DNA of 64,000 bases from Brevundimonas sp. Root1279 (GTDB taxonomy: Bacteria > Pseudomonadota > Alphaproteobacteria > Caulobacterales > Caulobacteraceae): contig NZ_LMEB01000009.1 in the NCBI RefSeq assembly GCF_001425945.1, positions 124,001 to 188,000 of the forward strand. Reading direction: 5' to 3'. The notes beneath the pieces were generated by a model. That model did not search any database, was not told the DNA's origin, and worked only from the letters and a program-made list of their open reading frames with translations. Position numbers and translations under genes: made by a program. How positions within the stretch are numbered: the first letter of the stretch is position 1; the number at the start of each line of letters is the position of its first letter. Shown piece by piece: positions 42,212-58,157 of the stretch.

Positions 42212-42321
42212 CCTGGCTGAGGCTGCGCATGTCGATCATCCGCGCGCAGGTCGGGCATCTGATCCAAGGGGCGGCCATGGAACCGCCAACCGGTCGCGGC
42301 GCTGATCCGTTCCGATGGGAG

Positions 42322-42381
42322 AAAGTGTGTTTCGCTACACACTTTTCCTTGCTTCCCGCCAGAGTGTGTGCAATAACACAC
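42322..42381 (+). promoter_or_regulatory. Twin inverted repeats upstream of hicA (operators)
   Basis: Site 1 is AAAGTGTGT-N6-ACACACTTT (42322-42345); site 2 is GTGTGT-N6-ACACAC (42364-42381). Both share the half-site GTGTGT with a 6-bp spacer, and their centres are 39 bp apart. Site 2 ends 3 bp before the hicA ATG. A possible promoter (TTGCTT at 42350, CAATAA at about 42371) lies between and over them. HicB carries a DNA-binding domain and normally represses its own operon, so these are its likely operators. Confidence 0.75.
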
Positions 42382-42383
42382 CC

Positions 42384-42572
42384 ATGGACAGCCGGACGAT
42401 CATTTCCCTCCTGAGGGCCGACGGATGGTTCCTCGTGAACCAGAAGGGCAGCCACCAGCAGTACAGGCACCCGACGAAACCGGGGCGGGTGACGATCGTC
42501 CACCCTCGCAAGGACTTCCCGACCGGGACCTTGAAGAGCATCGAACAACAGAGCGGCGTGAGGCTCCGGTGA
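42384..42572 (+). CDS. hicA: HicA mRNA-interferase toxin
   Basis: 62 residues, double-stranded-RNA-binding-like fold: IISLLRADGWFLVNQKGSHQQYRHPTKPG with the catalytic His in KGSHQQY, then VTIVHPRKDFPTGTLKSIEQQSG. HicA cleaves mRNA until bound by HicB. The ATG starts 3 bp after the second inverted repeat, leaving almost no leader. Confidence 0.93.
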   Translation: MDSRTIISLLRADGWFLVNQKGSHQQYRHPTKPGRVTIVHPRKDFPTGTLKSIEQQSGVRLR

Positions 42573-42610
42573 GAACCGGAGTCCAACCGCGCCAGACCAA
42601 GGAGGGTCAC

Positions 42611-43108
42611 ATGGCAACCCGAACCTACATCGCAGTGGTCGAGGAGTCGTCCCAGGGCGGCTACGGGGTCTGGTTCCCTGACCTGCCCGGCTGCGTCTCG
42701 GCCGGCGATGACCTGGACGAGGCCTGCACCAATGCGGTCGAGGCCCTGTCGCTGCACCTGGACGGGATGATCGAGGACGGCCAGGAGCCGCCGGAGGCCC
42801 GCTCAATGGATCAGGTCGACAAGGATCTCGACAAGCCCGCGGGGAGGTTCATCTATTCCGCGATCACCGCCGAGGTCGAAGACGACGGCGAGCGCGTCAA
42901 CGTCTACCTGCCGAAGTCGCTGCTCACCCAGATCAAGCGGTTCGGCGAGCGTACAGGCATCGACAACCGGTCGACGTTCTTGCGGCTGGCCGCGCGGCAA
43001 TACCTGAACTTCGAGCGCGGGGGCGAGACGGTGAAGATCAAGGCGAGCCGCACCATGTCCGGAGTGAGGGTCAAGCCGAAGGGAAAGAAGGCGGAGGCTG
43101 CGTCATGA
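42611..43108 (+). CDS. hicB: HicB antitoxin
   Basis: 165 residues from ATG at 42611 with GGAGG eight bases upstream. N-terminal RNase H-like fold (YIAVVEESSQGGYGVWFPDLPGCVSAGDDLDEA) binds HicA. The C-terminal part (VNVYLPKSLLTQIKRFGERTGIDNRSTFLRLAARQYL) is a ribbon-helix-helix DNA-binding domain suited to the operators upstream of hicA. Such pairs may stabilise the prophage or block other phages. Confidence 0.92.
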   Translation: MATRTYIAVVEESSQGGYGVWFPDLPGCVSAGDDLDEACTNAVEALSLHLDGMIEDGQEPPEARSMDQVDKDLDKPAGRFIYSAITAEVEDDGERVNVYLPKSLLTQIKRFGERTGIDNRSTFLRLAARQYLNFERGGETVKIKASRTMSGVRVKPKGKKAEAAS

Positions 43109-54180: not shown

Positions 54181-54767
54181 TATTCACGCTCCCGGACGGT
54201 GAACTGCAGCATCACGGTCCAGTTGCCGTCGACCTCCCAGTCCTCCATGTCGCGGACGAAGCCCTCAACCATCGGATCCCCAAGCTCGATGCGGTCCCCA
54301 TCGGCCGGCGGGCGGCGCAGCATGGTTTGGAGCAGGATCGGAGCCTCGCCATTCGCGTCGGCGACGACCTCGCTCTTGGCCCGGTAGAGGAAGTGTTGGC
54401 CGCTGGCGGTGATGTGGTTGAGGAACTGCCCGCGCCGGATGACCGAATGCGGCGTGAGGGCTCGGGCCGCGAGCGTTGTCCCGGCCTGGCCGCCGCCGTC
54501 GACGACAGGCAAGCCGTGGGCTCCCGTGTAGAAGCCCGGCTGATGGACACGCATGCGGACGAGATCGCCTTCTACCGCGAGCCCAGACCAGTCCATGGAC
54601 GTCACGTAGTCCATGTTCAGCCGATAGGTCAGGGCGTAGCGGGTCCCCTTCCGCAGCAACTCCTGATCATCACCCCCATGAGCCGGGGTCAGGGTGTTCT
54701 TGGCCGACACAATGCCGATCCGCATGCTCTGAGGCACGGGGCTCGACGGCAGAACCTGGACCGCCAT
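54180..54767 (-). CDS. Distal tail protein
   Basis: 195 residues. SMRIGIVSAKNTLTPAHGGDDQELLRKGTRY, then MDWSGLAVEGDLVRMRVHQPGF and a C-terminal beta domain with WEVDGNWTVMLQFTVRERE. It directly follows the tape measure gene, where siphoviruses keep distal tail proteins such as gpM. Family not identified. Confidence 0.65.
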   Translation of the reverse strand: MAVQVLPSSPVPQSMRIGIVSAKNTLTPAHGGDDQELLRKGTRYALTYRLNMDYVTSMDWSGLAVEGDLVRMRVHQPGFYTGAHGLPVVDGGGQAGTTLAARALTPHSVIRRGQFLNHITASGQHFLYRAKSEVVADANGEAPILLQTMLRRPPADGDRIELGDPMVEGFVRDMEDWEVDGNWTVMLQFTVRERE

Positions 54768-56851
54768 CAGCGCGTGTACCGGCGGTTCTTGGCGAGATCA
54801 GCCGGAACGGTCTGACGGGCGCCGTTGTAAGCAGCCCCGCCAGCCGCGGTAGCGAGGGGCGTTGCGACCTGGACCGCCTTGCCGGTGACGAAGGCGTTCA
54901 GGCCGTCCCGGTCGGCCGAGACCCGAACGTCAACCTGCGAGGCGATGGAGGCCGCTGCAGCATCCCTGGAGACGGCGTCGCGCGCGTTGAAGCCCCGAAC
55001 GGCAGCCGTGGCGGTGTCGGGGCTTGTGTTGTCGTTTGCTGCAGCCGGAGCGCTGGAACTGCCGCCGCTGTTGCTCAGGCCTAGGCCCGCGAGTAGGCCG
55101 AGCATCGCCGCAACGGCAGGGAATGCCCACGGGCCCAGAGCCTCGAACATCCGCGCTGCACCGGCCGCCATGGAGGCTGTGCCCTTGGCGATGCTGTTGG
55201 CGATGGACTCGGCGGTCGCCTGCTTGCCGAAGGTCATCTCCTGGATCATGCCGATCAGCTGCTGGGCGCGGTACACGCGCTCGACGGCCAGCATGATCTC
55301 GTAGCCGTCGCTGCCTTCCTTGAAGAAGCCGCGGGCCGCAGCGGCCATGTCACCGTAGTTCTGGATCTGGGCCTGGGCGCGGTGCCGGTCGGCCTGGTCC
55401 CTGGTGATCGCGAGCTGCTCTTCCGCCCGATTGATGTCTGCAATCCGGGCCTCATAGCCGGTCATCACGGTCAGCAGGTCGCCGAGGGCCCGTCCCGTCT
55501 CTCCGAAAGCAGACGAGAGGCCGTCGGCGGTATCGAGCGCCAGTTCGTCGACCAGCCGAAGCTCTTGCGCCGTCAGTTCGAGCAGGCTGGTCAGCTCAAT
55601 GAAGGCTCCGCGCGGCTTCTCGAGGTTGATGTCCTCGATCTTGGTCAGGCGCTCCTGAACCTGACGCGCAGCGCGGCCGGCAGACCCGGCTCGCTCTGCC
55701 CCGGGGTCGCCCGCTGCATCGAGAACGCGGGCGCGGGTCGTCGCTCCCAGGTTGCCGAGGAAGCGGTTCCAGCTTGCGTCCATCTGCTCGTCGGCGGCGG
55801 CGAAACCTTCGGAAAAGGCCGCTCCGGCGCGGGCGCCGGCCGATCGGGCCGCGCCCGCCCACTGGTTCTCGATGTCGCCGAAATCCGCACGAGGTAGCGC
55901 AATGGGAACGACAGGCTTGCCAGTGAGCGCTGCAAACATGTTGTAGCCGTCGATCAGGTTCTGGATCTGATCGCGCGTGCCGTTGACCATGTCCTCGACA
56001 GCGTTGATCACGCGGTTCGCTGCCGTGATGGCCAGGTCGCCGATGACCGCGGGGAGGTCGCTCCACACGGCCCGGATGGCATAGAACGAGCCCCAGAAGG
56101 CTCCGGTGATCGCCTTCGCCGCCGCGATCCCGTTCTTGACCGTCCAGTCGTAGGCCTGGCCGAACTTCTCCTGCAGCCACTCAAGCTGCGGACCGATGGT
56201 CGACTGGATGGTTTCCTTCACGGTCGTGCCGTACGCCCGGAACACGTCGCCCATGGTCGCCGTCGTGGTGACGCCCTGCTCTTCAAGGCGCTTGAGTTGG
56301 GCCTCCGTGAGGTTGAGCTCGTCCGTAACGTCGCCGACCGCCTTCGATGCCTCCCGGGAGAAGATCGCGAAGGCCGCGGTGACTCCCGCAGCCGCCAGCG
56401 CAATGCCCGCGATGATCGGGATCAGCGGGGCCAGCGCCGTCCAGACAGCAATGCCGGTCGCCACCATGGCGGCCCGGATTGTGGTCCCGGCGCGGATGGC
56501 GGCGCCTTGGAAGATGTCGAAGAGCTGCGGACCCTGCTGGATCGCGATCATGAAGGGCGACATGCCCATCGCCATTTGAACGCCGATGTCCGCCATCTGC
56601 CGGCTCATGTTCAGGCCCTCGGCAGTGGTCAGCCCCATGCTGCTGCGAGACGCGGCCAGGACAGCATTCTGCTGACGAACCGCCACGGCCATGGTCGAGA
56701 CCTGGGCGCCCGCTGTTTGCGAGGAGGCCCCAAGGCTTTCGGTCGCAGTCTCGGCGCGGACTGCGGATGCAGTGAGATCATCCAGGTTGTCGGAAGCGAC
56801 GACCGCATCTTCGGAGCGGACGCGGATGCCGAGTTCGGCGAGGTCAGCCAT
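54767..56851 (-). CDS. Tail tape measure protein
   Basis: 694 residues, sets tail length. N-terminus ELGIRVRSEDAVVASDNLDDLTASA; the NMSRQMADIGVQMAMGMSPF-IAIQQGPQLFDIFQG block is typical of lambda gpH relatives; then hydrophobic segments (about 122-170) and long coiled coils. The C-terminal third has a Gly/Ser/Ala-rich membrane-like helix (FPAVAAMLGLLAGLGL). Length predicts a tail of roughly 100 nm by the usual 1.5 A per residue rule. Its start overlaps the end of the frameshift extension. Confidence 0.9.
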   Translation of the reverse strand: MADLAELGIRVRSEDAVVASDNLDDLTASAVRAETATESLGASSQTAGAQVSTMAVAVRQQNAVLAASRSSMGLTTAEGLNMSRQMADIGVQMAMGMSPFMIAIQQGPQLFDIFQGAAIRAGTTIRAAMVATGIAVWTALAPLIPIIAGIALAAAGVTAAFAIFSREASKAVGDVTDELNLTEAQLKRLEEQGVTTTATMGDVFRAYGTTVKETIQSTIGPQLEWLQEKFGQAYDWTVKNGIAAAKAITGAFWGSFYAIRAVWSDLPAVIGDLAITAANRVINAVEDMVNGTRDQIQNLIDGYNMFAALTGKPVVPIALPRADFGDIENQWAGAARSAGARAGAAFSEGFAAADEQMDASWNRFLGNLGATTRARVLDAAGDPGAERAGSAGRAARQVQERLTKIEDINLEKPRGAFIELTSLLELTAQELRLVDELALDTADGLSSAFGETGRALGDLLTVMTGYEARIADINRAEEQLAITRDQADRHRAQAQIQNYGDMAAAARGFFKEGSDGYEIMLAVERVYRAQQLIGMIQEMTFGKQATAESIANSIAKGTASMAAGAARMFEALGPWAFPAVAAMLGLLAGLGLSNSGGSSSAPAAANDNTSPDTATAAVRGFNARDAVSRDAAAASIASQVDVRVSADRDGLNAFVTGKAVQVATPLATAAGGAAYNGARQTVPADLAKNRRYTR

Positions 56852-57221
56852 TCGCCTTCTCCTTCCGCTTCCGGCTCGCTTCGGCCTTTGCCCTCAGGAA
56901 GGACGTCAGGCCGCCGCCTTGGGGCTGTGGATTGGGATCGACCAGACCGAGGGACACCGCTCGAACCCGATCGTCGATCCGTCGGATGAGAGCCTTCTCC
57001 CAGGCGGTCAGCCCTGAGAACGTGCCGGCGTCGAAGGCCTCGATCTCGACATAGGTGATCGGGGCGACGACCTGGGCCGGCTGGCGGGTGCCGGCCAGCC
57101 TGCCGAAGCAGGCCCAGACGTGCGCCAGAGCCTCGGGGAAGGGGGGGAGCGGTTCGATCTCGCCCTGAACCGCTCCCGCGTAGGTGATCAGGTCTTGGGC
57201 GAGACCTTCAGCCAGTTTCCC
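56844..57221 (-). CDS. -1 frameshift extension of the tail assembly chaperone (GT-like)
   Basis: An open frame of 123 codons with no usable start runs from the slippery site to TGA at 56844-56846. It is entered from the 57610 gene by a -1 shift at GGGAAAC (57221-57215; codons G GGA AAC in the 0 frame), giving a 255-residue fusion: 132 residues of chaperone plus 123. The extension is helical and charged (GRLAGTRQPAQVVAPI, FSGLTAWEKALIRRIDDRVR, LRAKAEASRKRKEK). It matches gpG/gpGT layout in lambda. Confidence 0.88.
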   Translation of the reverse strand, partial: GKLAEGLAQDLITYAGAVQGEIEPLPPFPEALAHVWACFGRLAGTRQPAQVVAPITYVEIEAFDAGTFSGLTAWEKALIRRIDDRVRAVSLGLVDPNPQPQGGGLTSFLRAKAEASRKRKEKANG

Positions 57222-57610
57222 CGGTCAGCCACGAACCTCCCGGCCTGTTCACGGAACAGAGGCACTTCACGGAACAGTTGGGCCGCGTGTTCGTCGTCGC
57301 AGGGCCAGGTCTCGCCGTCGAAAGCGATGCCGGTCCAGCCCTTGCCCGATAGCGTCACCGCCTTGGCCAGAACCTCGATTTCGTTCGCCCGCGCCGACGC
57401 CGCCGAGACGCCGCCTCCGGGGACACGCTGCTTCAGATAGCGGTCCGTCTGACGGTTCATGATCTTCGTCAGATCGTCGCTATCGGGACCCAGCATCCAG
57501 ACGCCGACGGCCTCGCCCTCGTCGGTGTGCAGCGGCATGCCGTCGGGCCCGGCGAAATGGCAGAAGGCGGGGTCATTGGAGTTGACGGCCTTGAGTGCGG
57601 AAAGGTCCAT
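57188..57610 (-). CDS. Tail assembly chaperone (gpG-like)
   Basis: 140 residues. MDLSALKAVNSNDPAFCHFA, MNRQTDRYLKQRVPGGG and EIEVLAKAVTLSGKGWTGIAFDG make this a typical tail chaperone that helps tape measure and tube proteins polymerise. Between tail tube and tape measure genes. A fraction of ribosomes should shift at GGGAAAC near its end to make the longer GT-like form. Confidence 0.82.
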   Translation of the reverse strand: MDLSALKAVNSNDPAFCHFAGPDGMPLHTDEGEAVGVWMLGPDSDDLTKIMNRQTDRYLKQRVPGGGVSAASARANEIEVLAKAVTLSGKGWTGIAFDGETWPCDDEHAAQLFREVPLFREQAGRFVADRGNWLKVSPKT

Positions 57611-57686: not shown

Positions 57687-58157
57687 TTACGGCCCTGGCT
57701 CAGCGGGGACCTCGTGCACGTCGTCCAGCAGGATCGAGAACGACCGCTTGTTGACGGCGTTGGACTGGCCGACGTTGACCTTGTTCGTGTTGACCAGGCC
57801 GATCAGGTAGAAGGTGGAGGGGGTGCCGTCCTCGTCCGGCTCGTCCGCCGCAGTGATCTTGAAGGCGTACTTCAGCTTGGAGGCCTCGGCCGCGATCATG
57901 GCCTCCTGGCCGGCATCGCCCGGCACGTTGGCGAAGGTGACGACGATGTCGCCCGCGTCACGGGCGCCCTTGCGCTTGATCACCTTCCCGTCGAGGCCGG
58001 TGAAGGTGATGGTCGCGGCCGAGGGGCCGAACTCGGGGATGGTCTCGACCTTGGCGATGTCCACATAGGGCGTCAGGGCGGTGATGGTCGAAGCGTCGTC
58101 GGACGCGGTGGAGGGACCGATTGCGATCGTGGTTCCGATCCCGTCGGAGATGGCCAT
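57687..58157 (-). CDS. Tail tube protein
   Basis: 156 residues. IGTTIAIGPSTASDDASTITAL, VETIPEFGPSAATITFTGLDGKVIK, DIVVTFANVPGDAGQEAMIAAE and VNVGQSNAVNKRSFSILLDDVHEV show the lambda gpV-like beta-barrel that stacks to make the non-contractile tube. Confidence 0.85.
   Translation of the reverse strand: MAISDGIGTTIAIGPSTASDDASTITALTPYVDIAKVETIPEFGPSAATITFTGLDGKVIKRKGARDAGDIVVTFANVPGDAGQEAMIAAEASKLKYAFKITAADEPDEDGTPSTFYLIGLVNTNKVNVGQSNAVNKRSFSILLDDVHEVPAEPGP

Follow-up and report, generated by a model that had tools for sequence, protein, structure and literature searches.

Cassettes of the dnaX type for −1 ribosomal frameshifting consist of a Shine-Dalgarno (SD) sequence, a slip-prone heptamer and a hairpin. 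Bacteriophage lambda and many of its relatives use a −1 frameshift to express the tail proteins G and GT; across phages, such proteins usually resemble each other little in sequence, and for virus HCTV-1 the g-t shift site is listed as G_GGA_AAC (PMC5009743). In Caulobacter phage Sansa, ribosomal slippage is annotated in the gene of the tape-measure chaperone, at GGGAAAA.

We analysed a stretch of 64,000 nucleotides from Brevundimonas sp. Root1279 (the window), in which, judging by sequence comparison, a siphovirus-like prophage very probably uses programmed −1 ribosomal frameshifting to express its pair of tail assembly chaperones. The pair is a further case of the known lambda G/GT type and is ordinary in kind. 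As with gpG and gpGT of lambda, it lies before the tape measure gene, its slip site is near the end of the first open reading frame (ORF), and the −1 extension has no start of its own. The GGGAAA core of the heptamer is also shared with lambda; however, the window heptamer ends in C where that of lambda ends in G, and for the window we propose a downstream hairpin and an SD-like element. The slip site of Sansa lies in the same register. Fold searches with either half of the window pair matched the Sansa long form (weakly for the extension), which is too diverged for a sequence match by tblastn.

The minus-strand tail module runs in the order tail terminator, major tail protein, 140-codon ORF and tape measure gene, and the two overlapping frames sit directly between the tail tube and tape measure genes (Table 1). 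At the heptamer, the zero-frame codons are CGG GGA AAC, which is the X_XXY_YYZ register, ten codons ahead of the stop of the chaperone ORF. A TGA at 57227-57225 closes the −1 frame just upstream, so that this frame can only be entered within 57224-57188, and GGGAAAC is the sole canonical heptamer in that zone. From CTG at 57215 the −1 frame is open for 123 codons up to the TGA at 56846-56844; its end overlaps the tape measure ATG (56851) by 8 bases, and the predicted fusion product is 255 amino acids long. An earlier note, made from the letters of this DNA, had placed GGGAAAC in this register of the 140-codon gene, which is correct base for base, and its description of a 123-codon frame ending at 56844 and overlapping the tape measure start is exact. 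It had also stated that the extension has no ATG, GTG or TTG near its beginning; indeed, the first such codon is a GTG at 56957, codon 87.

Table 1. Features of the frameshift locus, in coordinates of the window
Feature	Position	Strand	Basis
Major tail (tube) protein	57687..58157	-	Match to PHROG 158 (major tail protein) at E 1.1e-16
Tail assembly chaperone, short form (gpG-like), 140 codons	57188..57610	-	PHROG 313, Foldseek, position
Slip site G_GGA_AAC, in register	57215..57221	-	Sequence and same heptamer in relatives
−1 frame extension (gpT-like), 123 codons + TGA	56844..57215	-	PF23812, selection, model
Tape measure protein	54767..56851	-	PF06791 TMP_2, E 3.4e-12; PHROG tail length tape measure
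Predicted stimulatory hairpin AGGTCT-CGCCCA-AGACCT	57190..57207	-	Perfect 6 bp in all GGGAAAC junctions of the family; compensatory changes in two pairs
Shine-Dalgarno-like GGGAGG, possible stimulator	57236..57241	-	Anti-SD duplex energy

The openness of the −1 frame is weak evidence for frameshifting; 18% of dinucleotide shuffles of this DNA (68% GC) keep the frame open at this length (p about 0.18). Codon statistics were derived from the 64-kb window alone. In a stretch of 12 codons, the expectation for an in-register G_GGA_AAC is about 6e-4, and that for any in-register heptamer of the XXX-AAA/TTT-Z class is about 0.003 (0.3%). For the remaining in-register heptamers of this class in the window there is either another explanation or no support. 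One of them, GGGAAAG at 43081, was considered as a second candidate frameshift and rejected: it is found where a HicB-like gene ends, and since the ORF that follows begins with an ATG of its own, the heptamer is probably a chance occurrence. The surrounding region (42315-43108, plus strand), an 85-amino-acid HicA-like ORF followed by a HicB-like antitoxin (PF15919), is a probable HicAB toxin-antitoxin pair.

Homology, rather than openness, is the decisive support for a frameshifted gene pair, and both halves fall in tail assembly chaperone families (PHROG 313, PF23812 and fold matches). The extension matches Pfam PF23812 (Phage_TAC_18, phage tail assembly chaperone) with E 1.3e-8 and 35.3 bits, above the curated cut-off of 27 bits, and all 19 aligned relatives match the same family. 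The 140-codon ORF matches PHROG 313, 'Tail assembly chaperone', with E 1.4e-7. Its AlphaFold2 model (pLDDT 86.7) has viral tape-measure and tail assembly chaperones as Foldseek matches, and the model of the extension (pLDDT 90.7) is all helical. Scans against Pfam, PHROG and NCBIfam gave no match to a model of lambda G or T, no solved structure gave a credible sequence match, and Rfam had no match. The best PDB fold matches, YqbN (3klu, Z 4.6) for the chaperone and Bcl-2-like helical bundles (Z up to 4.7) for the extension, are weak and were set aside as evidence.

The usable relatives comprised seven prophages of the same genus, a sewage phage record (MW091528) and alphaproteobacterial and IMG/VR contigs; L013, L069, L093 and L096 were left out as not interpretable or false matches. 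In 50 related loci, with 35 distinct junctions among them, the frame that encodes PF23812 lies −1 relative to the upstream chaperone ORF. A class-wide search for PF23812, which took in 385 genomes, gave 15 matches outside the window: 13 had a −1 partner, one had no overlap and one was an unrelated false match. A canonical heptamer was present at the junction in 11 class-wide loci (A_AAA_AAC in eight, G_GGA_AAC in L081 and L089, A_AAU_UUU in one). The window has the −1 layout in common with these PF23812 members, but in most of them the chaperone ORF ends with A_AAA_AAC, whereas the G_GGA_AAC of the window precedes the stop by ten codons. An identical IMG/VR copy of the window locus was also found; it is probably from the same isolate and adds little. 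In a Bradyrhizobium phage (L015, OP596612.1 16467-17275) the layout is the same, with AAATTTT at the junction; its record has one CDS for the chaperone, under the name of a branched-chain amino acid ABC transporter, and another for the extension.

In close pairs of relatives, synonymous changes in the extension frame outnumber nonsynonymous ones (22/3, 26/4, 21/6 and 13/1), and the other two frames of the same pairs show the opposite pattern. The earlier note had named such synonymous-biased change as a check, and these counts indicate that the extension is under purifying selection in the relatives. Between the window and its nearest relatives dN is 0.44-0.49 and dS about 1.2, which is near synonymous saturation, so the window's own selection signal is only moderate. 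That the two frames might be a decayed or mis-sequenced single gene is suggested by their differing by a single nucleotide, as after an indel; however, the −1 arrangement recurs in dozens of independent contigs and both parts are under purifying selection. Comparison with relatives thus refutes this reading, to which we give a negligible probability.

Residues FxEGLAxxLI of the extension are conserved immediately after the slip site, in the overlap before the chaperone stop, and the −1 frame is therefore translated there. This bears on whether the extension could be a separate gene with a non-standard start, reached by termination-reinitiation, for example at CTG 57191, which overlaps the chaperone stop (C TGA). 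Such a CTGA overlap of stop and candidate start is found in the window and in many relatives, and the annotators of MW091528 called a separate CDS. However, L010, L012, L034, L044 and L049 have CTA (C TAA) in its place, which cannot serve as a start; the conserved FxEGLAxx precedes CTG 57191; and the first standard start in the window, codon 87, falls at the distal end of the PF23812 match. A separate gene is therefore very improbable. The MW091528 record also qualifies the claim that a gene caller would miss the extension entirely: standard callers are blind to the 123 codons in the window, but in MW091528 there is a separate CDS from an internal GTG, with the front cut short. The central claim of the earlier note, a programmed −1 frameshift in the tail chaperone gene, is borne out by the family of both halves, the −1 layout in relatives, selection and the lack of a usable start.

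GGGAAAC occurs at the homologous place in L006, L034, L035, L049 and L050. The predicted hairpin, a perfect stem of 6 bp, begins 7 nt after the heptamer in the window, and all six pairs are present in 4 of 4 distinct GGGAAAC junctions of the window's family (which represent about three lineages) but in none of the remaining 31 distinct junctions. The arms are swapped in L006 and L034 (AGACCT...AGGTCT), and L049 has AGGCCT...AGGCCT; across the GGGAAAC junctions two pairs are altered on both sides, that is, by compensatory changes. At the protein level the arm swap is a glycine-aspartate exchange (EGLAQDL versus EDLAEGL), so that selection on the protein and on the RNA is not fully separable. 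Folded as a single sequence, the hairpin of the window does no better than shuffles (z -0.77). Prediction from the window sequence alone also gave a larger stem, of 10 bp (z -2.2), which is not claimed as a signal. No RNA structure is common to all relatives (z -0.9), and the two slip-site groups have different stems. The comparison moderately favours the hairpin as part of the GGGAAAC signal, and only moderately, because the window fold does not exceed shuffles and the four junctions amount to about three lineages.

The GGGAGG lies 14 nt upstream of the heptamer, and its duplex with the anti-SD has an energy of -10.9 kcal/mol against a control mean of -4.3 (sd 2.2). Among relatives the corresponding element is strong in L049 (GGAGG, -9.3) and middling in L006 and L034 (AGAGG, -6.5), which weakly suggests that it belongs to the GGGAAAC signal. 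In dnaX-like cassettes, as we defined them, an SD-like element lies about 10-14 nt upstream of the heptamer and a hairpin 5-8 nt past it; the window falls within both ranges and has the three parts, as predicted elements, in the same order, although its heptamer differs.

We propose that the majority of ribosomes would read the 140 codons and make the short chaperone, and that a minority, at G_GGA_AAC, would re-pair both tRNAs one base back (on GGG AAA), helped by the hairpin and probably by the SD-like element. The slipped ribosomes would read the 123 further codons and produce the fusion. By analogy with gpG and gpGT of lambda, a coat of short form and fusion would surround the tape measure protein, and the tail tube protein would be recruited through the extension. 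Of a fusion of the lambda type one would further expect synthesis at a low ratio and absence from virions. We infer the slippage itself, its efficiency, the roles of the hairpin and SD-like element, and the binding functions. Runs of three or four identical bases are too short for slippage of RNA polymerase, and it is highly improbable that the fusion arises by transcriptional slippage on the G4A3 run; the junction does contain a short homopolymer pair, GGGGAAA, but many relatives have no run longer than three or four at the junction, and the association with a hairpin points to ribosomes. The efficiency of ribosomal frameshifting at G_GGA_AAC may be low, because heptamers ending in AAG are highly shift-prone in Escherichia coli, whereas those ending in AAC are more typical of eukaryotic ribosomes (PMC5009743).

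Most relatives lack GGGAAAC yet keep the extension, an outcome that the earlier note had listed as refuting the frameshift. The outcome does occur, but it is no refutation, because another slip-prone sequence, at the same or the next codon, takes the place of GGGAAAC. The substitutes, one codon downstream, are A_AAU_UUC/U or the weaker G_AAU_UUY, C_CGU_UUU, C_CAU_UUY and A_AGU_UUU. At the weaker N_NNU_UUY sites presumably only the A-site phenylalanine tRNA re-pairs well. C_CGU_UUU or C_CAU_UUY, which offer no good P-site re-pairing, were seen in L007, L008, L010, L038, L039 and L045-L048, and these junctions suggest single-codon slippage on U_UUY. Weaker slip sites are not unprecedented, because the XXXYYY motif is missing from most annotated frameshift overlaps (PRFect; PMC10885494). 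In the relatives without GGGAAAC a different stem recurs, formed by CCUCGC and GC-GAGG (z -5.1 relative to column shuffles); its pairs hardly vary and so carry little covariation information. In L044 the junction at about 2503-2512, GGGAAATTTC, contains both types of slip site, GGGAAAT and AAATTTC, overlapping, as would be expected of an evolutionary intermediate between them.

In nine closely related IMG/VR viral contigs (L070-L078) the chaperone ends TTT CTT TGA and the homologous extension is in the +1 frame. Their chaperone is homologous to that of the window family (hmmsearch with the family profile, E 2.3e-28), and the +1 extension, with 20 synonymous and 2 nonsynonymous changes, shows the same purifying pattern. 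The CTT_TGA, at 2323-2328 of each locus, is a site of the bacterial release factor 2 type, although the shift is possibly −2 rather than +1. CUU before a stop is the commonest forward site in RECODE (PMC10885494). We tentatively suggest, at somewhat less than an even chance, that one homologous chaperone pair of alphaproteobacterial phages has had its recoding cassette exchanged as a whole, with the fusion protein kept the same. The cassettes would be G_GGA_AAC together with an SD and a hairpin of 6 bp; A_AAU_UUY, or single-codon U_UUY, placed one codon further downstream and accompanied by another stem; and +1 shifting at CTT_TGA in L070-L078.

For the window, the analysis corrects the annotation by adding a part of a tail gene, 123 codons long, that is invisible to standard callers. 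Among the relatives, slip signals range naturally over strong −1, weak −1 and +1 types, while the gene pair and its protein product stay the same, and this series would allow frameshift efficiency to be compared against a fixed required ratio of products.
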